Shown: positions 1 to 9,984 of the stretch, one piece after another
How positions within the stretch are numbered: position 1 is the first letter of the stretch
Layout: every line of letters begins with the position of its first letter
Assembly (NCBI GenBank): GCA_019690095.1
Contig: JADGGD010000002.1
Coordinates: 1 to 64,000, forward strand
Direction of reading: 5' to 3'
Origin: Chloroflexota bacterium
Lineage (GTDB): Bacteria > Chloroflexota > UBA6077 > FW602-bin22 > CADDYW01
DNA: 64,000 bases
Position numbers and translations under genes: made by a program
Notes under the pieces: generated by a model
What the model was told of the DNA's origin: nothing
Databases searched by the model: none
The model's input: the letters and a program-made list of their open reading frames with translations, nothing else

Positions 1-269
1 GAAGGATCGCCGCGCCGCGGCGGTCCGCGTGCCGACGCGGCGGCGCCCCGGACAGAAGCCGACCCCTGGCTTCGCGTGCTCGACCGCATCGTCGTCTCCA
101 AGCCTTCTCGCGTTCTCGCACCGGGGACCGGCGGACCGAGATGCGTGGCCCGCTGGGCACCAGCAAGACCACGATAGGGGAGAGGCAACAGCCTGACTAT
201 CGCCCCAGGGGAGACAATTTGTCACCGCAGTCCCGGAGGACCCGTGTCACCCCGGGCTGGGCGCGGCCG
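1..269. other. left-edge region without an assignable gene
   Basis: No frame gives a recognisable protein. A plus-strand frame stays open from the left edge to a TAG at about 175-177 and could be the 3' end of a gene that starts outside the window, but it matches no family I know. Confidence 0.3.
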
Positions 270-299
270 CTATCTGCGCGCGCCGGAGGGTGACACGGG
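241..299 (-). terminator. inverted repeat at the 3' end of the LuxR-type gene
   Basis: CCCGTGTCACCC (241-252) pairs perfectly with GGGTGACACGGG (288-299), with a 35-base loop holding the stop codon of the minus-strand regulator gene. There is no T-run after it, so a terminator role is uncertain. It could also be a protein-binding palindrome. Confidence 0.3.
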
Positions 300-1022
300 G
301 GGTGACAGGGTAAGAGAGGGGCGCAGAGGAATAGGCGAGCGAGGAGCTTGATGACCGAGGCCACGGGGCCATGCACGCGGCAGCAGACCCTGCTCGATGG
401 CCAGTGCTACCGCGTCATGGCGCGTTTCAGCATGGAGCTTCTCGCGAATCCGACGGAGGTAGGTCTTGACCGTATTGCGCGACAGGCTCAAACGCTCGGC
501 GATCTCCTCCTCTGACGTACCATCATAGAACAGGCAGAGAACCTGGAACTCGCGGGGCGACAGCACCGAATCAGGGAAACGGCGCTCTTCAAAGGTCGCG
601 CGGAGTACCAGGTTGATCAACAATTCGGTAGTCCGGGCGCAGAGCCAGGTGCCCCGACGGGCGAGCGTTAGCACCGCCTCACACAAATCCTCCGTCCCCA
701 GCTCGGCACAGATGCCATAGCCGCGGACCCCGAGGCGGAGCGTCGCGAGTGCCTCTTCGCCCTCTTCGTTATCTGTGAGTACTAGCAGGCGAAACGCCCG
801 GGGGGTTGCGGCGAGCTTTTCTACGATCGGCGCTGCCTCGATATGGGGGATATCACTCGTGAGCACAAGAACATCACAGTCGAGGCGATCAGTACGGACA
901 ACCGCGCCCGCGTCGCGGAGCCTGCCCACAACGCGCAGGCGCTCGTGGTGCTCGAGTGCTGCCGCGATACCCGCCTGGAGGAGCGGTGATCCCCCGGCGA
1001 GAATCGTTCGGATGCCGTCCAT
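270..1022 (-). CDS. LuxR/NarL-type regulator with a degenerate receiver domain
   Basis: This is a 250-residue protein with the NarL/FixJ layout: a receiver-like domain (about 5-120), a linker, and a LuxR-type helix-turn-helix (about 152-212, LSPREFQVL then NTVKTYLRRIREKL). A Pro/Arg-rich tail of some 35 residues follows. The receiver lacks the usual phosphorylation residues: the acidic pair is replaced (ILAGGSP), the phospho-Asp position reads T (DVLVLTSDIP), and the expected Lys is absent (GVRGYGICAEL). It therefore probably acts independently of phosphorylation. The ATG follows a GGAGGGAG ribosome-binding site. No partner kinase is adjacent. The DNA-binding assignment is firm; the target genes are unknown. 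Confidence 0.85.
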   Translation of the reverse strand: MDGIRTILAGGSPLLQAGIAAALEHHERLRVVGRLRDAGAVVRTDRLDCDVLVLTSDIPHIEAAPIVEKLAATPRAFRLLVLTDNEEGEEALATLRLGVRGYGICAELGTEDLCEAVLTLARRGTWLCARTTELLINLVLRATFEERRFPDSVLSPREFQVLCLFYDGTSEEEIAERLSLSRNTVKTYLRRIREKLHAETRHDAVALAIEQGLLPRAWPRGLGHQAPRSPIPLRPSLTLSPPVSPSGARR

Positions 1023-1578
1023 GCCTTGCTCCCTCCTGACCTCACATCATTGTAGAGGTGGGGCCTTTCAGCTCACCATTGGCGCGGGAGTACAACTTTG
1101 TATCGCCCTTGCATCGCCGCCGTATCTCGCGCGGCCGGACAGGATCAGCTACTCGGCAACGGACCATCCAGTTTCTGCATTGACATTGACTCATCCATCC
1201 CCTGCGACCGAATCCACATCACCCGGGCGAACGGGCGCGCGGCCACGTGGGTGGCGATACGGGTACCAATGATACCAGAAAAAGGTTGAGGTGGGGTTGT
1301 GAGAAAGTTCCACCGAACGTTGAGGTAACTTATGGTGCTCCGCGAAGATGCGAGAGATCCGGTCTCCAGTGGATAATTTTCGGATCGCCCCGCAAGCAAT
1401 GGACTCGCTGACCTCGGGAGAAGACAGTGAGACTGCACCAGGATGGGCGGTGCGCTTCATCGCCGATCACCGCTACCAGCAGGCTTTGCGGAGCCAAGAT
1501 GCCTCGCGTCTCGGATGATCCGGCCAGTCCGCTGTGCTACCATGGCCGGCCAGAGAGGACCGGGCTGGAGGAGTGGCC
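1023..1578. other. 555-base spacer between divergent genes
   Basis: This spacer separates the minus-strand LuxR-type gene from the plus-strand S9 peptidase gene. A TACAAT just upstream of the LuxR-type start could be its -10, but I see no good -35. Small open frames here look non-coding. The peptidase promoter is listed separately. Confidence 0.4.
1515..1543 (+). promoter_or_regulatory. candidate promoter of the S9 peptidase gene
   Basis: A -35-like ATGATC (1515-1520) lies 17 bases before TACCAT (1538-1543), which is preceded by TGTGC, giving an extended -10 (TRTGn type). The same TGTGCTAnCAT string occurs before the aldehyde dehydrogenase gene. The predicted transcript start is near 1550. 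Confidence 0.5.
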
Positions 1579-3462
1579 GTGACGATGATCTATGAGCGCC
1601 TGGCAGGCGATCGCCCCGGGCTGTGGGAGAGTGCTCTCACACCGCGCATGCTGGCTCAGGTCGCATCCGTGGCCGAGCCGCGCTGGTCACCTGACGGCGG
1701 CCACCTCGCCTACATCTCTTCGCGTGGCGGAGAAGGTCGGCTCGTGGTGCTTCCCGCTGCGGGCGGGCCGGAGCTGCAGATCAGCAGCGATCCTCCGGCA
1801 CAGGCCGGTGGGGCCTACAGTGGGGGATTCCACGACTGGGCACCTGATGGACGATCGCTTGTCTATGTCGCTCGGGACGGGAAGCTCTGGATCGTATCGG
1901 CTCACGGCGGTCGGTCGCGGCGACTGGCCGAAGACGATGGGCGCCAGCGGGCACCGGCCTGGTCGCCCGATGGACGGAGCATCGCCTACGTCCGCGAGAC
2001 TGCTGATGCATCCGCCATCGCCGTGGCTCTTATCCCGCGCGAGGGCGAGTCGCCTTCCTGGCCGCGGCGGGTAAGCGGCAAGGCGGACTTCGTCATCGAT
2101 CCGACCTGGTCACCCGGCGGAGATATGATCGCCTGGCAGGAATGGGATATCCCTAACATGCCGTGGGACGGAAGCCGCATCGTCGTCGCCAACCCAGAAT
2201 CCGGGGAACGGCGGATTGTCGCCGGCGGTGAGAACGAAGCAACAGCCCAGCCGCGATTCTCGCCAGACGGACGCTACCTCGCTTTCCTGAGCGACCGCAG
2301 TGGTTGGCTGAACCTGTGGATCGCTACGGCCGATGGTCGGGATCCGCGCCCACTCGTCGCCGAGAGCTACGAGCACGGGGGACCTACCTGGGGGCCCGGT
2401 GCGCGCACGTTCGCCTGGTCTCCGGATGGTTCGCGCATCGCCTATCTCCGGAACGATCGGGGCAACTGGCGCCTGCGGATGGTTGACGTGGCAACCGGTG
2501 CGACGTGGGGAATCGACGAGTCCGACGGCGTGCGGGCCGGACTCGTCTGGTCATCGCGCAATCAGCTCGCCTTCCTGCACAGCGCGGCGACTGCCCCAAC
2601 CAGTCTCCAGATCCTCGATCTCTCCTCCGGAGAGACGCGAACTGTTGCGCTCACTGCCCCCGGGGGGCTCACTGAGGCCGGACTGGCCGCGCCAGAGGCC
2701 ATAGAGTGGACCGGCCGCGACGGCGTCACGCTCCACGGGCACGTCTATCGCCCGCTGCGCTCGACGCGCTACCCGACGCCCCTTCTGGTGATGCTCCATG
2801 GGGGGCCAACCGGCCAGTTCGGTGTGGGATGGAATGGAATCATCCAGTATTTCGTTCAGCGCGGCTGGGCTGTCTTCACGCCAGACTACCGCGGCTCGAC
2901 CGGCTACGGGCGGGCCTACACCCAGGCCCTTCGCGAGCATTGGGGGGTATACGACGTCAATGACACCATGGATGGGATCGAGCACCTGATCCGAACTGGC
3001 GGGATCGACTCCGGACGCGTCGCGGTTATGGGAGGAAGCGCGGGCGGCTACACTGTCCTCATGCTCCTCGCCCTGGTTGGGGATCGCATTCGCGCCGGGG
3101 TTGACCTGTACGGCGTCACCGACCTCTGGGAACTGAACGAGACAACCCACCGCCTGGAGGCCCACTATAACCACCACCTTATCGGCCCCCTCCCGGAGGC
3201 GGCGTCCCGCTACATCGAGCGCTCGCCAATCTTCCTTGCCGACCGGATCAAATCGCCCCTGCTCGTGCTCCAGGGCGATGCCGACCCGGTCGTGCCCCGG
3301 AGCCAGTCCGATGCGCTCGTCGAAGCCGTTCGCCGGGCTGGCGGAACGGTGGAATACCACGTATATCAGGGGGAAGGACACGGCTGGTCGCGCGCCGAGA
3401 CCCAACAAAACGCCCTGGAGACGATCGATCGTTTCCTGATCCGGTATGTCATCCTGCGGTGA
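1579..3462 (+). CDS. S9-family serine peptidase (prolyl oligopeptidase type)
   Basis: The N-terminal half (about 25-365) has repeated WSPDG, FSPDG and WSPDGS motifs, as in PD40/TolB-like beta-propeller blades. The C-terminal half is an alpha/beta-hydrolase peptidase domain. The catalytic residues are visible: Ser487 in GGSAGGY, Asp569 in GDADPVVP and His601 in GEGHGW. The product should cleave short peptides with the propeller filtering substrates. There is no signal peptide, so it is probably cytoplasmic. An upstream GTG at 1534 is possible, but GGAGGA at 1567-1572 sits six bases before the GTG at 1579, so I use that start (627 residues). It appears monocistronic. Acylaminoacyl peptidase and dipeptidyl peptidase are the likeliest subtypes. 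Confidence 0.9.
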   Translation: MTMIYERLAGDRPGLWESALTPRMLAQVASVAEPRWSPDGGHLAYISSRGGEGRLVVLPAAGGPELQISSDPPAQAGGAYSGGFHDWAPDGRSLVYVARDGKLWIVSAHGGRSRRLAEDDGRQRAPAWSPDGRSIAYVRETADASAIAVALIPREGESPSWPRRVSGKADFVIDPTWSPGGDMIAWQEWDIPNMPWDGSRIVVANPESGERRIVAGGENEATAQPRFSPDGRYLAFLSDRSGWLNLWIATADGRDPRPLVAESYEHGGPTWGPGARTFAWSPDGSRIAYLRNDRGNWRLRMVDVATGATWGIDESDGVRAGLVWSSRNQLAFLHSAATAPTSLQILDLSSGETRTVALTAPGGLTEAGLAAPEAIEWTGRDGVTLHGHVYRPLRSTRYPTPLLVMLHGGPTGQFGVGWNGIIQYFVQRGWAVFTPDYRGSTGYGRAYTQALREHWGVYDVNDTMDGIEHLIRTGGIDSGRVAVMGGSAGGYTVLMLLALVGDRIRAGVDLYGVTDLWELNETTHRLEAHYNHHLIGPLPEAASRYIERSPIFLADRIKSPLLVLQGDADPVVPRSQSDALVEAVRRAGGTVEYHVYQGEGHGWSRAETQQNALETIDRFLIRYVILR

Positions 3463-3506
3463 TCCCGCACCCCCGTCCGGCGCGGCCTCTTACCTCGCAG
3501 GTCGGC

Positions 3507-4715
3507 CTAATGGCGCCCCCCGAGCCGCTCCATAAACCGTCGAAACCGCTCGATGCCCTTCTTAATTGTCTGTGTGTCCGTGGCGTAGGAGAAGCGAACG
3601 TGCTGATCCGACCCGAAGGCGCGGCCGGGGACGACGGCCACGTGCTCTTCTTCCAGGAAGCGCTCACAGAACGTCAGGGAGTCGAGCCCGCTGGCCGCGA
3701 TCGACGGGAAGACGTAGAATGCCCCATCCGGCCGCACGAGACTGACGCCGGGGATATCGGCCAGCCCCTTGCAGATCAGATCCCGGCGGCGAGCGAACTC
3801 CTGCCGCATCATCTCGACGGCCCCCTGGTCGCCTTCGAGAGCGGCAAGAGCACCATACTGGGCGAAGGTGGTCACGTTCGACAGGCTGTGGCTCTGGACG
3901 ACATTCGCCGCCTCAATGATCGGACGGGGTCCTGCTGCATACCCGATACGCCAGCCCGTCATCGCATAGGCCTTGCTAAACCCGTTGACGGTAATGGTCC
4001 GCGCGAAGATATCCGCCCCCAGGCTCCCAATGCTTCGATGTTCCACCTCGCCATAGGTCAGCTTCTCGTAGATCTCGTCGGAGATGACCAGGATATCGCG
4101 CCGGACGATAATGCGCGCGAGGGCAGCCAGCTCATCGGGCGTGTACATCACTCCGGTCGGATTGGAAGGGGTTGCGATAATCAGCAGGCGCGTGCGTGGA
4201 GTGACAGCCGCATCGAGCTGAGACGGCGTAATCTTGAACCGGGTGGTCTCGTCTGTCTCCAGAATCACCGGCACCCCGCCCGCGAGGCGGACCATCTCCG
4301 GGTAGCTCAACCAGTAAGGGGAGGGAATGATCACCTCATCGCCGGGGTTGATGAGCGCCATGATCACGTTGTACAGGGCCTGCTTCGCGCCGCCGGATAC
4401 CTGAATCTGGTCCGGAGTGTACGGCAGGCCATTCTCGCGCTCCAGCTTGCGCGCAATCGCGATGCGGAGCTTCTCGATGCCCTCGACTGCCGCATACTTT
4501 GTCTCACCACGCTCGAGCGCGGCAGTCGCCGCCCGCTTGATATGATCCGGAGTATCAAAGTCGGGCTCGCCCGCACCGAAGCCGCACACATCTATGCCGC
4601 GAGCACGCAGCGCCCGCGCCCGGGCGGTGATCGAAAGCGTCATAGACGGGGCAATGCCATTCAGGCGATCGGCCAGATGGTAATGTGCCTGAACGTCCTC
4701 AGTCGAAGAAGCCAT
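3507..4715 (-). CDS. class I/II pyridoxal-phosphate aminotransferase (AspC-like)
   Basis: This 402-residue fold-type I aminotransferase matches the usual length. Landmarks are GAGEPDFDTP near the N-terminus, the aspartate-binding SNPTG, SDEIYEKL, and the PLP-binding lysine in NGFSKAYAMTGWR. The C-terminal RFSYA holds the substrate-carboxylate-binding arginine. The closest textbook relatives are the thermophilic aspartate (Igamma-type) aminotransferases that move the amino group between aspartate or a related amino acid and 2-oxoglutarate. Exact specificity cannot be read from sequence. It lies 14 bases downstream of the other PLP enzyme and probably shares its transcript. Confidence 0.88.
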   Translation of the reverse strand: MASSTEDVQAHYHLADRLNGIAPSMTLSITARARALRARGIDVCGFGAGEPDFDTPDHIKRAATAALERGETKYAAVEGIEKLRIAIARKLERENGLPYTPDQIQVSGGAKQALYNVIMALINPGDEVIIPSPYWLSYPEMVRLAGGVPVILETDETTRFKITPSQLDAAVTPRTRLLIIATPSNPTGVMYTPDELAALARIIVRRDILVISDEIYEKLTYGEVEHRSIGSLGADIFARTITVNGFSKAYAMTGWRIGYAAGPRPIIEAANVVQSHSLSNVTTFAQYGALAALEGDQGAVEMMRQEFARRRDLICKGLADIPGVSLVRPDGAFYVFPSIAASGLDSLTFCERFLEEEHVAVVPGRAFGSDQHVRFSYATDTQTIKKGIERFRRFMERLGGRH

Positions 4716-4729
4716 GCCCGCTCCCTACC

Positions 4730-5872
4730 TTATCGTACTCCCAGAACCTCGGCCAGGCGCCGAGCCACGATCTCCTCCTCGCCCTCCTGGAGGGTTTGCG
4801 GATTGATGTAGATCCCCGCACGGCCCGCTCCTACGGCGATGGACGGCTCACCATCCCGGAGCGCCTTTACAACGTGGTCAACCCCGAAGCCCAGGACGGT
4901 GGGATCAAGGCTGATCAGGGCGCGCGGATGCGGCTGGCCGGCCTCGCTTGGGAAGTCGCGGCGCGCGCTCACACCCGGCTTCTTGCCGTCGAATCGCTCG
5001 ACGAACATCCGCACCACGTCCTCATAGCGCTGGAGAATCGCCCGGTGGTCCTGGCGCAGATACCACTCGACTGCGGCGAGGATTCCGGCCAGTTCCTCCT
5101 TCCCGACCTTCATCGGGCGGCCGATATTCTGCACCGGATTCGCATTCACATAGATGCCCTCAATGATCTCCTTCTTACCCAGGACAAGGCCGGTCGGCTG
5201 GGGACCGCAAAGCCCCTTTCCGCCGGAGAAGATCGCGATGTCCGCGCCCAGATCCCGCGTGAAGCGCCAGAGATTCTCCGGCGGTGGAAGCTGGGCCGCG
5301 GCATCAACAATTACCGGCACATTGTGCCGGTGGGCGCTCTCGATGACCTGCTCAAGCGGGAGCGCGCGCTGCTCGTTGAGCATACCAGCCAGATACACGA
5401 CGGCGATCGTGTTCGGGGTGTAAGCGGCCTCGAGTTCCCATGGCTGAGCTCCGTTCCCCATGCCGAACTCCACGAGGTTCACCCCGACCATGCGAATGGC
5501 GTGGTCATAGACAAACCGCTGGGACTTGTGAATGAGAACATCGTACTTGGGGCCGTCCGGCAAAGGCAAACGCTCGGCCTTCGCCTCGTCCGTGCCCGTG
5601 ATCAGCGCCGCCGTCACGAGGGTCAGGCCCGCCGCCGCGCCGCTGGTCACATAGCAGGCCTCATTGTGGGTCAGCTCCGCGATGCGGGCGCTCACCGCGC
5701 GCTGCATCTCCACGATATCCACGAACGCCTCACCGGCCTCGAGCATGGCCTGGCGCACCTCGAGCGGCATGATCGATCCGCCGAGACGGGTGAGCGTTGC
5801 CGATGCGTTGATGATCCGTCGAATGCCCAGCCTCTCGTAGATGCCAGCCGGGCGGGTTGCAGCTTCCACCAC
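4730..5872 (-). CDS. SelA-like PLP enzyme (selenotransferase / ammonia-lyase superfamily)
   Basis: The protein starts IYERLGIRRIINASAT and carries FSGGKGLCGPQ, whose lysine should bind PLP. This is the pattern of the SelA/DgaE-like group annotated as L-seryl-tRNA(Sec) selenium transferase-related or D-glucosaminate-6-phosphate ammonia-lyase. Length (380 residues) is below that of true SelA (about 460), and no selB, selC or selD is in view, so selenocysteine synthesis is unlikely. The frame opens at 5920, but GGAGGG at 5878-5883 points to the GTG pair at 5872/5869. Substrate is unknown; an amino-sugar or amino-acid lyase role is inference. Confidence 0.75.
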   Translation of the reverse strand: MVEAATRPAGIYERLGIRRIINASATLTRLGGSIMPLEVRQAMLEAGEAFVDIVEMQRAVSARIAELTHNEACYVTSGAAAGLTLVTAALITGTDEAKAERLPLPDGPKYDVLIHKSQRFVYDHAIRMVGVNLVEFGMGNGAQPWELEAAYTPNTIAVVYLAGMLNEQRALPLEQVIESAHRHNVPVIVDAAAQLPPPENLWRFTRDLGADIAIFSGGKGLCGPQPTGLVLGKKEIIEGIYVNANPVQNIGRPMKVGKEELAGILAAVEWYLRQDHRAILQRYEDVVRMFVERFDGKKPGVSARRDFPSEAGQPHPRALISLDPTVLGFGVDHVVKALRDGEPSIAVGAGRAGIYINPQTLQEGEEEIVARRLAEVLGVR

Positions 5873-6004
5873 GACGTCCCTCCAGACGGGTTCTCGGTCA
5901 CGTGCACCGCGGTTATACACACTCTAGCTGATTCTACGATCACCGTAAAGCCCGGCCGTCGCACTGGCATCCCGCAACGGTGCCCTTCACACCCTTAAAC
6001 CCCG

Positions 6005-6580
6005 TCAGATTCCCTCGGACGGTGGCAGACGGTCAGGAAAGACCTCGCGCACACGGGGGAGCTGACGGTCGCGCTCGGAGAGAATCGGGGGTCCAGCGAG
6101 CTGCCAGTGAATCGCCAGATCAGGGTCATCCCAGGCAACCCCGATCTCGCCTCCCGGCGTCCATTCCTGGTCAACCGAGTAGATGTAATCGGCGACATCA
6201 CTGAGGACGAGGTATGAATTGCCGCAGCCCGGAGGCACCACTGCCATTGCCCGTCGGCTCTCGCCCAGCCTGAGCGACTCGTACCGGCCAAAGGTGCTGG
6301 ACTCCGGACGCAGATCGACTATGACCGCCTGCACCTCACCCCGCACGACATAGATGCACTTCGTCCACCGCGCGATGTGAATACCGCGGAGGACACCCCG
6401 CACCGATCGCGCGTGGTTCCACTGGACGTGCGGCACCGGGCTACCGAGGACAGCATTGACATCCGATGCTCGCCGCTCGACCTCCCGGAAGAAGCCTCGC
6501 TCATCAGCCAGAGTGGGCCGCTCGACCAGGATCAGCCCCGGAATACCGGTCCGCGTCACGTACACCCGTTGCTCGTCCAC
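6005..6580 (-). CDS. dTDP-4-dehydrorhamnose 3,5-epimerase-like cupin
   Basis: The 191-residue product has RfbC-family features: DERGFFREV, the segment VRGVLRGIH, WTKCIYVVRGEVQAVIVDLR, and VVPPGCGNSYLVLSD. The family epimerises dTDP-4-keto-6-deoxyglucose at C3 and C5 on the way to dTDP-rhamnose. The catalytic His is present in RGIH, but other rfb genes are absent here, so the sugar nucleotide could differ. The frame opens at 6685, but AGGAGG followed nine bases later by GTG at 6580 fits translation best. It is divergent from the kinase-hydrolase fusion gene. Confidence 0.8.
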   Translation of the reverse strand: MDEQRVYVTRTGIPGLILVERPTLADERGFFREVERRASDVNAVLGSPVPHVQWNHARSVRGVLRGIHIARWTKCIYVVRGEVQAVIVDLRPESSTFGRYESLRLGESRRAMAVVPPGCGNSYLVLSDVADYIYSVDQEWTPGGEIGVAWDDPDLAIHWQLAGPPILSERDRQLPRVREVFPDRLPPSEGI

Positions 6581-6666: not shown

Positions 6667-6700
6667 GACAACAGTTCGGCACCATCCAGGAGAAGACGCG

Positions 6701-8980
6701 ATGCTCATTGTTGGACTGATGTCAGGCACATCGGCCGATGGGATCGATGCGGCGGTCATCGATCTCGATCACCTCCAGGTTGGAGCGCGCTTCCGCATTC
6801 GGGGCACCGCCTTTCTCCCCTATCCGAGCGACCTCCGCGCAGAGATCCTGGCCTGCTGCTCTCCCCCGTCTGGTACCGTTGACCGCATCTGCCGCCTCAA
6901 TGCCCTGCTCGGGGAGTGGTTCGCCCGGGCGGCTCTGGAGGTGATCGAACGCGCCGGTCTCCGACCGGATGACGTCGCTCTCATCGCGTCCCACGGCCAG
7001 ACAGTCTATCACGCCGTGGGCCCTGGTGCCGATCCGCCCGCAACGCTTCAGATCGGCGAGCCCGCGGTCATCGCTGAACGCACCGGCCGCACTGTCGTCG
7101 CGAACTTCCGCCCCCGCGACATCGCTGCCGGCGGGCAGGGTGCTCCGCTGCTGTCCTATGTTGACTATCTTCTCTTCGCCGCGCCCGGCCGGGCTCGCGC
7201 CCTGCAGAATCTCGGCGGAGTAGCAAACGTGACCCTGATTCCACCGAGCGCCGATGCCAGCGACGTTATCGCCTTCGACACCGGCCCGGGGAACATGGTG
7301 ATCGACGGATTGATGGAACGTCTCTTCGGCCAGCCTTTCGATGCGCAGGGTGCGGTGGCCGCCCGGGGCAGGGTCAGCGACGATCTCCTCGCTGACCTTC
7401 TTGCCGATCCGTTTTTCACTCGTCGTCCCCCCCGTACGACCGGCCGGGAGGAGTTCGGCGCGGCATACGTGAGCCGTCTGATCGAACGAGGGCGGGAGCG
7501 CGGGCTGGACCCGGCCGATCTCGTCGCGACGGCTACTGCCCTCACGGTGCGGTCGATCGGGGAGGCATACCGTCGGTTCCTCCCGTCGGTGGATGAGGTT
7601 ATCGTTTCGGGGGGAGGAGCATCGAATCCAACGCTCCTCGCCTGGCTTCGGCGTGAGCTCGCCCCCGCAGAGGTGCGCCGCTCAGATGAGGTCGGCATCC
7701 CGTCGGACTACAAGGAGGCGATCGGCTTCGCTGTTCTCGGCTTCGAGACCATCCACGGCCGGGCGAGCACACTCCCACGGTGTACCGGCGCCCGTCACGC
7801 GGTGGTAACTGGTCAAATCATCCCCGGCGACAACTACCATGAACTCCTTCGGCAGATCAGCGCCACCCCGATGTTCAGTATTGTTGGCCACGCGCATCAG
7901 CTCGAGCGTACAGTTGAGCTGATGAACCAGGCAGTTGCCGAGGGGGTCTTTCCCGGGGCGGCGCTCGTGGTCGGGCGCGGCGACGAGACCCTGCTGGCCC
8001 GAGGCTTCGGCCGCCTCACTACCGAGCCGGATGCGCCTGCTGCAAGCATCGATACGATCTATGATCTCGCCTCGCTGACCAAGGTCATCGCGACCACGAC
8101 TGCCGCCATGATCCTGGTCGACGAGGGGAGGTTGGATCTGGCGGCACCGGTCGCCACCTACCTCCCGGACTTTGCACAGGCCGGCAAGGACGACGTGCGC
8201 ATCCGAGATCTGCTCCTGCACTGCTCCGGCCTGCCGGCCATCTTCCCCGGGGGCTTTCCCGCGTATGCCACAGCTCACCGTCTCCCGCGAGACCGCGCGG
8301 CGATCATCGCAGAGGTGTGTGCTCAGCCGCTGACCTACCCCACCGGCTCACGTGTCGTCTACAGCGACCTGGGATTCATCGCCCTTGGAGCGGTGATCGA
8401 GGCAATCTGCGGCGAGCGGCTCGACACATTCACGGCGCGCCGTGTCTTCGAGCCGCTGGAGATGGCCGCAACCTGCTTCAATCCGCCCCCGTTTCTCTGG
8501 CCCCGCATCGCCCCGACGGAGTTCGACAACTGGCGCGGGGGTCGCATCATACGCGGAGAGGTCCACGACGAATGCGCCTGGATGATGGGAGGCGTGGCAC
8601 CGCACGCAGGCCTGTTCAGCACCGGCAGAGATCTCGCGCGCTTTGCCCGCCTGCTTCTCCACGAGGGCACACTTGGCTCGGTCCGGATCATCCAGCCCGA
8701 GACCGTCGCTATGTTCGTCCGCCGGGAGGGGAGCATTCCGGGCTCAACCCGTGCCCTCGGCTGGGATACGGCAAGCGCGGAGAACGCGGCAGGGCCTGCA
8801 CTGTCGGGAGCCGCCTTCGGTCACACCGGCTTCACCGGTACCTCGCTCTGGATCGATCCACAGCGCGCACTCTGGGTCATCCTCCTGAGCAACCGCGTCT
8901 ACCCGAGCCGCGCCAATCAGGCGATTATCTCCTTCCGCCCGCGCCTCCACGCTGCTGTTATCGCCGATCTCGAGCGATGA
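6701..8980 (+). CDS. fusion: anhydro-N-acetylmuramic acid kinase + AmiE/YbbE-like serine hydrolase
   Basis: One uninterrupted 759-residue frame holds two complete enzymes. Residues 1 to about 385 are AnmK: GLMSGTSADGID (5-16, ATP site), SHGQTVYH, FDTGPGNMVIDG, and an AnmK-like C-terminal end. AnmK opens the anhydro bond of anhMurNAc and phosphorylates it to MurNAc-6-phosphate. Residues about 391-759 are a class C beta-lactamase-fold hydrolase with Ser458-x-x-Lys461 (SLTK), Tyr554 (YSD) and His708 (HTG). The HTGFTGTSLWID stretch resembles Bacillus AmiE (YbbE), the N-acetylmuramyl-L-alanine amidase. No signal peptide is seen, so both halves act in the cytoplasm. ATG 6701 follows CAGGAGA. The stop overlaps the next start (ATGA). 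An upstream in-frame stretch from 6377 looks untranslated. D-aminopeptidase or esterase activity is possible for the second half. Confidence 0.9.
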   Translation: MLIVGLMSGTSADGIDAAVIDLDHLQVGARFRIRGTAFLPYPSDLRAEILACCSPPSGTVDRICRLNALLGEWFARAALEVIERAGLRPDDVALIASHGQTVYHAVGPGADPPATLQIGEPAVIAERTGRTVVANFRPRDIAAGGQGAPLLSYVDYLLFAAPGRARALQNLGGVANVTLIPPSADASDVIAFDTGPGNMVIDGLMERLFGQPFDAQGAVAARGRVSDDLLADLLADPFFTRRPPRTTGREEFGAAYVSRLIERGRERGLDPADLVATATALTVRSIGEAYRRFLPSVDEVIVSGGGASNPTLLAWLRRELAPAEVRRSDEVGIPSDYKEAIGFAVLGFETIHGRASTLPRCTGARHAVVTGQIIPGDNYHELLRQISATPMFSIVGHAHQLERTVELMNQAVAEGVFPGAALVVGRGDETLLARGFGRLTTEPDAPAASIDTIYDLASLTKVIATTTAAMILVDEGRLDLAAPVATYLPDFAQAGKDDVRIRDLLLHCSGLPAIFPGGFPAYATAHRLPRDRAAIIAEVCAQPLTYPTGSRVVYSDLGFIALGAVIEAICGERLDTFTARRVFEPLEMAATCFNPPPFLWPRIAPTEFDNWRGGRIIRGEVHDECAWMMGGVAPHAGLFSTGRDLARFARLLLHEGTLGSVRIIQPETVAMFVRREGSIPGSTRALGWDTASAENAAGPALSGAAFGHTGFTGTSLWIDPQRALWVILLSNRVYPSRANQAIISFRPRLHAAVIADLER

Positions 8981-9984
8981 AGCAGATCACCGGCTTACGC
9001 AAACAGCGGCGGTCCGGCGTATGGGCTGTCCTGTTCCTCGCGGCTGCCATTGCGACCGGCCTTACCAGCTGCATTCCCCTTGACCGACCGGCACCAACGG
9101 CACCCCCAACCGCCGGTCCCCCGGTCCCTGCCGGCAGTGGCTCTACCGCAGCAATTCCCCCCTTCAGCCACGTGTTCGTTATCGTTATGGAAAACCGGGA
9201 GTACGGGCAGATCATCGGGGCACCGGACGCCCCATATCTGAACCAGCTTGCATCGACCTACGGGCTCGCCCGACGGTACTACGCGATCACGCACCCGAGT
9301 CTTCCGAACTATCTCGCCTTGCTTTCCGGTTCCGTGCAGGGCATCGCGAACGACTGCCCGACCTGCGAGGTCACGGCGCCCAACCTGGTTGACCAGCTCG
9401 AACGGCACGGACGCACCTGGACCGCCTACGTTGAGGATCTCCCAGCCCCCTGCTTCAACGGGCCGTTCGCGGGCGGTCCGGGGTCAGTGCTTGGAACCAG
9501 CGGATATGTGCGCCGGCATAATCCATTCATGTATTTCCGTGACATTGGGCGGGATCCGATCCGCTGTCAGCACGTCGTTCCACTCACGCGGCTCGCGGCC
9601 GATCTCACCTCCGGCTATTTACCCGCGCTCGTGTGGATCACGCCGAATCTCGAGCACGACATGCACAGCGGTTCGACGCGAGAGGGCGATATCTGGCTCT
9701 CCGGACTGGTTCCGCGTCTTCTTGCTTCACCCGCGTGGCAGAACGGCGGTGTCCTCTTCATTACCTGGGATGAAGGGCAGACCAGTGACGGCTGCTGCGG
9801 CAACGCCGCAGGTGGGCACGTCCCAACCCTGGTAATCGCCGCCCACGGGCGACGCGCTTTCACCTCAGACCAACTGTATACACATTACAGCCTGCTCCGC
9901 ACGATCGAAGAGGCCTGGCAGCTCGGCTATCTCGGACACGCGGCTGACCCAACCACCCGCTCCATGGCCGACTTCTTTCGCTAA
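8977..9984 (+). CDS. exported lipoprotein, phosphoesterase family (phospholipase C / acid phosphatase type)
   Basis: The 335-residue product begins with a basic, hydrophobic signal ending in LTSC, so Cys32 should be lipidated. A Pro/Thr/Ser-rich spacer follows. The mature part has the phosphoesterase family pattern: FVIVMENREYGQIIG (metal-binding E-N), HPSLPNYLALLSG, ITPNLEHDMHSG, ITWDEGQ and GGHVPTLVIA. Relatives are AcpA-type acid phosphatases and bacterial phospholipase C. It should hydrolyse phosphomonoesters or phosphodiesters on the outer face of the membrane. The start overlaps the preceding stop (ATGA), so the two are translationally coupled. Whether its substrate is linked to cell-wall turnover is inference. 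Confidence 0.85.
   Translation: MKQITGLRKQRRSGVWAVLFLAAAIATGLTSCIPLDRPAPTAPPTAGPPVPAGSGSTAAIPPFSHVFVIVMENREYGQIIGAPDAPYLNQLASTYGLARRYYAITHPSLPNYLALLSGSVQGIANDCPTCEVTAPNLVDQLERHGRTWTAYVEDLPAPCFNGPFAGGPGSVLGTSGYVRRHNPFMYFRDIGRDPIRCQHVVPLTRLAADLTSGYLPALVWITPNLEHDMHSGSTREGDIWLSGLVPRLLASPAWQNGGVLFITWDEGQTSDGCCGNAAGGHVPTLVIAAHGRRAFTSDQLYTHYSLLRTIEEAWQLGYLGHAADPTTRSMADFFR

Follow-up and report, generated by a model that had tools for sequence, protein, structure and literature searches.

Contig JADGGD010000002.1 of a Chloroflexota bacterium carries a fusion gene whose product has an AnmK half at the N-terminus and a serine hydrolase half at the C-terminus, which raises the question of whether the two enzymes are truly joined in this organism and which reaction the hydrolase contributes. 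In the window, i.e. the whole stretch of 64,000 nucleotides that was analysed, the gene is a single frame (6701-8977, stop at 8978-8980) of 759 aa with zero internal stops. A preliminary description had read this frame as a complete AnmK joined to a complete hydrolase, and this reading was borne out by Pfam spans at residues 2-375 and 407-737 with intact motifs; moreover, SxxK (458-461), YSD (554) and HTG (708) were all found at the positions it had given. The features are collected in Table 1.

Table 1. Coordinates of the fusion gene, its domains and motifs, and related fusions (positions in the window unless a locus is named).
Feature	Position	Strand	Evidence
Fusion gene AnmK + serine hydrolase, 759 aa	6701..8980	+	Open frame; colinear ortholog L002/L124
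Shine-Dalgarno-like AGGAGAA, 6 nt 5' of the ATG at 6701	6688..6694	+	Sequence read
AnmK domain, residues 2-375	6704..7825	+	Pfam PF03702; NCBIfam equivalog; AnmK and levoglucosan kinase structures
Asp193 of FDTGPGN	7277..7279	+	Alignment with FDTGPG motif of levoglucosan kinase
Interdomain linker, residues 376-402	7826..7906	+	19% identity and dN/dS ~1 vs sister fusion, frame kept
Class C beta-lactamase-fold hydrolase domain (predicted), residues 403-759	7907..8977	+	Pfam PF00144; structure model
SxxK, S458-L-T-K461 in DLASLTK	8072..8083	+	S and K conserved in all 37 relatives
YSD, Y554-D556	8360..8368	+	Y invariant in 37-relative alignment
Hydrolase family signature RGEVHDECAWMMGGVAPHAGLFS, residues 618-640	8552..8620	+	Common to YfeW, NamZ-linked and AnmK-linked relatives
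HTG, H708-G710 in GHTGFTGT	8822..8830	+	Alignment of relatives
Lipoprotein-like PF04185 phosphoesterase, ATGA-coupled to the fusion gene	8977..9984	+	Pair conserved beside sister fusion
MurQ-hydrolase fusions	L237:8810-10870; L238:4293-6467; L242:7344-9491	-	Open frames, Bacillota-like genomes
AnmK-MurQ fusions	L091:1480-3609; L093:1489-3558; L094:809-2899; L160:5729-7858	+	Open frames

AnmK converts anhMurNAc to MurNAc-6-phosphate and requires ATP. The N-terminal half was matched by Pfam PF03702 (AnmK) over essentially the whole model (residues 2-375, E 2e-107; 359.9 bits vs a cut-off of 24), and it also passed the cut-off of the NCBIfam AnmK equivalog (473 vs 387 bits). The ATP-binding motif GLMSGTSADGID (test motif GTSxDGID) and D193 in FDTGPGN were both present and aligned to kinase structures; from what is known of AnmK and LGK, Asp193 is presumably the catalytic base. 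Thus the window protein has the complete domain, the glycine-rich motif and the FDTGPGN motif in common with AnmK (PF03702; PDB 3QBW, 8BRE), but differs in that another catalytic domain follows at its C-terminal end. The kinase half is most likely an anhMurNAc kinase.

The C-terminal half was assigned to Pfam PF00144 (Beta-lactamase) at residues 407-737 (E 9.6e-63). Among hydrolase models, the best match was PBP4B (E. coli YfeW, NF002968), yet the score of 193 bits lay below the cut-off of 385. An alignment of 37 relatives displayed the blocks DLASLTK, YSDLG, GxVHDENA..GGVSGHAGLFS, GHTGFTGT and LLTNRVHP; the window hydrolase carries VHDECA..PHAGLFS and conforms to the family signature (VHDENx..GHAGLFS, SxxK, Tyr motif, HTG). 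The VHDE..GHAGLFS block is common to E. coli YfeW and AmiE-like proteins, and it is absent from AmpC, AmpH and the remote esterase-like Chloroflexota paralogs. A generic esterase was set aside as the identity of this half, which shares family motifs with YfeW, an AmiE candidate and relatives in salvage operons.

Phylogenetic analysis placed this half more closely. In a hydrolase tree of 50 rows, in which deep forks are weakly supported and several are open, the family formed one branch (85/86), and the AmpC/AmpH outgroup was split off at 95/81. The two fusions, from the window and from a sister genome described below, formed a clade (100/100) that joined AnmK-linked hydrolases (93/86); one row labelled as AnmK-linked (AK_L243) comes from a genome with AnmK elsewhere, and the placement of the fusions is unaffected by it. 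YfeW fell in a clade with proteins adjoining NamZ and NagZ (98/98), among them L239, where the genes follow the B. subtilis order amiE-nagZ-namZ and the hydrolase is 41% identical to the fused one. This secreted AmiE/YfeW clade excludes the fusion pair, though the pair lies inside the same family, and the exact sister group of the fusion hydrolase is uncertain. The proposal in the preliminary description that the hydrolase belongs to the AmiE family was therefore upheld by the shared motifs and by the tree with YfeW and the synteny-defined candidate L239. In sequence terms, the fused hydrolase is a member of the broad YfeW/AmiE-type family, a poorly characterised salvage family. Membership with AmiE (YbbE) was judged via the synteny of L239 and motifs, rather than the B. 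subtilis 168 sequence, and the fused domain lies outside AmiE sensu stricto.

An AF2 model of the hydrolase half built from four sequences (pLDDT 75.6, pTM 0.82) was compared by Foldseek. The best PDB match was EstG (TM 0.78), with 4ivi at 0.73 and R61 at 0.71; the model also matched family VIII esterases and AmpC, and the fold is common to the DL-peptidase Lip3. The predicted class C beta-lactamase/family VIII esterase fold was thus confirmed by modelling, and the substrate is not settled by the fold. To our knowledge, there is no biochemical test of the fused-type hydrolase clade. B. subtilis AmiE is an amidase that works outside the cell and is encoded in the order amiE-nagZ-namZ (PMC5061867). 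It is a separate protein acting with NagZ on MurNAc-peptides, whereas the fused domain is cytosolic, has an epimerase and a phosphoesterase as gene neighbours, and has anhMurNAc-peptide as its predicted substrate. The likeness to YfeW/PBP4B of the E. coli murQP operon extends to SxxK, YSD, VHDE..GHAGLFS, GHTG and a MurQ pathway neighbourhood; however, YfeW has an export signal and only 34.5% identity to the fused domain.

The joining of the two halves was then examined by comparison with related genomes. A genome of another genus in the same Chloroflexota family (G201) encodes both domains in the same order and without an intervening stop; its product shares 70% identity with the window protein across residues 1-758, the alignment being interrupted by one gap of 1 residue. 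Comparison of the two fusions by the Nei-Gojobori method gave a dN/dS of ~0.15 both for residues 1-375 and for residues 403-759. For the linker of 27 residues, dN/dS was ~1 and amino-acid identity 19%, with near-constant length and the frame kept. Hence the AnmK and hydrolase halves are both under purifying selection and only the linker drifts. Such a freely diverging linker with a kept frame is the prediction of a true fusion, which indicated that the fusion is genuine; short and freely diverging, the linker reads as a tether. The flanking genes are conserved as well, namely the upstream divergent dTDP-sugar epimerase (73% identity) and the downstream PF04185 phosphoesterase (62%, L124). In the window, the start of the latter overlaps the fusion stop as ATGA. 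A SelA/DgaE-like PLP enzyme, recognised by eye at 4730-5920 on the minus strand and possibly an amino-sugar acid lyase, also lies near the fusion, and this gene is not conserved beside the sister fusion.

The preliminary description had raised the objection that a sequencing error might join two neighbouring genes. The window assembly is indeed a draft (403 contigs, 5.3% contamination), which would favour a merger of two adjacent genes by an assembly or sequencing error. This was checked and excluded by the colinear frame and conserved flanking genes of an independent sister genome, by purifying selection on both halves and by the in-frame drift of the linker. Moreover, the usual operon order is hydrolase then AnmK, the reverse of the fusion, so that losing one stop would not create it. 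The chance of an artefact is therefore negligible, and the fusion is confirmed as real, rare and conserved, joining two enzymes of a known pathway.

The species range was surveyed in the sampled genomes, among which a protein with both domains was confirmed in the window genome and G201 only. The fusion is present in two of the four sampled genomes of its family; another member (G233) encodes AnmK alone, terminating where the linker would begin, with no hydrolase trace in the AnmK contig, and no AnmK match was obtained in the fourth (G145). No match spanned both halves in any other of 400 sampled Chloroflexota genomes, and in the phylum of G404 (labelled Bacillota), 399 genomes yielded no confirmed AnmK-hydrolase fusion. 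One further candidate, G773, resembled a fusion in that both matches were reported with the same open-frame length, and it was ruled out by a stop codon and ~55 codons separating the genes. A search of viral contigs gave one distant relative only. Full-text searches of open-access papers yielded no account of AnmK joined to this hydrolase in one protein, which is not proof of novelty.

The unfused relatives of both enzymes are frequently neighbours. The two genes are closely adjacent on the same strand, with the hydrolase upstream, in 14 of the 400 Chloroflexota genomes (G002, G015, G369, G190, G394, G163, G373, G249, G171, G075, G368, G284, G298 and G240; the gap in G298 is 0.8 kb), and the same arrangement is found in the phylum of G404, where at least nine genomes have it. 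In G404 and G773, the kinase comes first and the hydrolase second as separate genes; the fusion thus has the minority gene order. Neighbours include GH3 or GH20 hexosaminidases, BadF-type kinases, MurQ, NagA, SIS proteins and sugar ABC transporters. Annotated clusters illustrate the pattern in Thermomicrobium roseum (SIS-NagA-hydrolase-AnmK-GH20 and BadF-MurQ), Deinococcus (GntR-AnmK-MurQ-hydrolase-GH3), Halorussus (AnmK, hydrolase, NamZ and NagZ) and Mariluticola (hydrolase-AnmK with an ABC transporter), and the order NamZ-MurQ-hydrolase-BadF recurs in Alicyclobacillaceae. In T. roseum (TRD_RS12395-TRD_RS12400), the same two enzymes as in the window are adjacent in a salvage cluster, but as two proteins with the hydrolase first. 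Members of the hydrolase family therefore lie in cell-wall salvage operons across Chloroflexota, Bacillota, Deinococcus, Rhizobiales and haloarchaeal plasmids, and because its pairing with AnmK is so widespread in operons, there is good ground for assigning both enzymes a shared role in the salvage of cell-wall sugars. On a Halorussus halophilus plasmid (L178, 3900-14944), ABC transporter genes accompany AnmK, the hydrolase, NamZ (DUF1343) and NagZ, and Haladaptatus plasmids likewise carry AnmK and the hydrolase. Since archaea make no peptidoglycan, these clusters look like a means of scavenging bacterial walls.

Further fusions within the same enzyme set were also found. MurQ and the hydrolase form single frames of 686, 724 and 715 aa (L237, L238 and L242, respectively) within NamZ-BadF-[MurQ-hydrolase]-GH3-AnmK clusters or close variants, and AnmK and MurQ form single frames of 709, 689 and 696 aa (L091, L093 and L094) in Chloroflexota, where the three genomes concerned belong to a single family. 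Each of the three possible pairs of hydrolase, AnmK and MurQ thus exists as a fusion, in different lineages. The fusions that contain MurQ belong to the same pathway and contain the same domains as the window fusion, but with other partners and in other lineages, as separate fusion events. MurQ is cytosolic and AnmK needs ATP, so the fused hydrolase branch is cytosolic, unlike B. subtilis AmiE; moreover, the position of the hydrolase C-terminal to AnmK makes a signal peptide impossible. A bolder proposal is that, in bacteria lacking AmpD, the three enzymes assemble into a physical complex for salvage, of which different lineages froze different pairs into fusions. The window protein would then represent the amidase-kinase pair, in which a serine hydrolase has taken over from the zinc amidase the cytosolic cleavage of anhMurNAc-peptide. 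The proposal as a whole is conceivable but doubtful.

Taken together, the window protein probably acts in peptidoglycan salvage as a cytosolic enzyme with two activities, combining a predicted (anhydro)MurNAc-peptide amidase, in place of AmpD, with an anhMurNAc kinase. In the proposed route, MltG-type lytic transglycosylases would yield anhMurNAc ends, and the fragments would be imported and relieved of GlcNAc before peptide cleavage. The C-terminal serine hydrolase would then cut the D-lactyl-L-Ala amide and free the stem peptide from the (anhydro)MurNAc-peptide, the N-terminal AnmK would open and phosphorylate the freed anhMurNAc to MurNAc-6-phosphate, and the separately encoded MurQ would turn this into GlcNAc-6-phosphate. 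The lactyl-L-Ala bond is inferred from family and context, and anhMurNAc-peptide, rather than MurNAc-peptide, as the substrate and the order of the steps are likewise the presumed ones. The preliminary description had proposed that one chain removes the peptide and phosphorylates the sugar; the domains, the family and the salvage association agree with this, whereas amide cleavage and the anhydro substrate are predictions. AmpD is a zinc amidase of the NALAA-2 fold and is reported to be missing from monoderms (PMC6403190), so that there is room for a replacement amidase. The E. coli enzyme cuts anhMurNAc-L-Ala and feeds cytosolic AnmK, the reaction predicted for the fused hydrolase, but it has another fold and no homology to that domain, so that the comparison is one of analogy only.

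The genomic context agrees with this reading in part. The window genome encodes MltG, NamZ and a partial MurQ cut at the contig end. The contig ending in MurQ (L148, G000:C265) also carries, at ~1-6400, a probable type I-E CRISPR-Cas locus, recognised by eye from cas5/cas6/cas1-like ORFs followed by frames reading through regular repeats. G201 encodes MurQ, MltG and NamZ, and its NamZ adjoins an ABC transporter, a PIG-L deacetylase and a GNAT protein. NamZ was not found in G233 or G145, the family members without the fusion; in four draft genomes, its co-occurrence with the fusion is only suggestive. PIG-L-type deacetylase-like genes adjoin NamZ in unrelated genomes (L226:10906-11673, L185:8721-9434 and L190:1750-2457; Pfam confirmed the identity for the L226 gene only), and such a deacetylase may carry out a step in the salvage of muramic acid that has gone unrecognised. 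The fusion gene itself lies outside any salvage operon, which counts against a salvage role. No GH3 or GH20 hexosaminidase was detected in the window genome to supply GlcNAc-free anhMurNAc-peptide, which speaks against the amidase-kinase reading. Accordingly, the notion of a recycling unit in one protein proved incomplete, with MurQ and NamZ encoded elsewhere and no GH3/GH20 found for GlcNAc removal.

Other functions were weighed against these data. The hydrolase could be a stem-peptide peptidase (a DD-carboxypeptidase or a DL-/DD-endopeptidase) that trims muropeptides, with release of the sugar for AnmK left to a different enzyme. In work cited by PMC5061867, the family member YfeW is described as a low-affinity PBP with weak DD-carboxypeptidase activity, and the fold is common to the R61 DD-peptidase and Lip3; together with the position of the fused domain outside the AmiE/YfeW clade and below the PBP4B cut-off, the reported activity of YfeW is a point against an amidase. 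However, AnmK and MurQ need a peptide-free sugar, and pairing and fusion with them fit an amidase better, as does the amidase activity of B. subtilis AmiE, whose synteny matches; a peptidase is thus unlikely. A role in anhydrosugar catabolism, in which levoglucosan would be the substrate of the kinase and a sugar ester that of the hydrolase, would draw on the family VIII esterases among the fold neighbours and on the best PDB sequence match of the kinase, levoglucosan kinase (263 bits vs 239 for AnmK), a slight advantage that also tells against salvage. Nevertheless, the AnmK equivalog cut-off was passed with a large margin, relatives of both halves adjoin MurQ, NamZ, NagZ and NagA, and the window genome encodes MurQ and NamZ, which renders this role very unlikely.

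With the amidase-kinase reading preferred, the remaining question is whether the two catalytic centres are turned towards each other and anhMurNAc passes directly from one to the other, as the preliminary description had suggested. Consecutive reactions in one chain would favour such a transfer, and the pairwise fusions of hydrolase, AnmK and MurQ hint at selection for proximity. On the other hand, the linker diverges freely at near-constant length, most relatives, close ones included, are separate proteins, and a single-sequence AlphaFold model of the full-length protein reached a pLDDT of 34, too low for interdomain geometry. Direct transfer is therefore not implied and appears quite unlikely; the fusion probably provides equal amounts and co-localisation of both enzymes.

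In conclusion, the fusion very probably joins two recycling steps that are run elsewhere by two neighbouring genes. Together with the operon pattern, it points to one uncharacterised family for freeing anhMurNAc from peptide before AnmK in monoderms, and it offers a simple, testable protein for the peptide-removal step upstream of AnmK. These findings suggest that relatives of E. coli YfeW, a protein of poorly defined function, act in salvage within the cytosol, and that the clusters of haloarchaea have the same role, which would serve organisms that make no peptidoglycan of their own.
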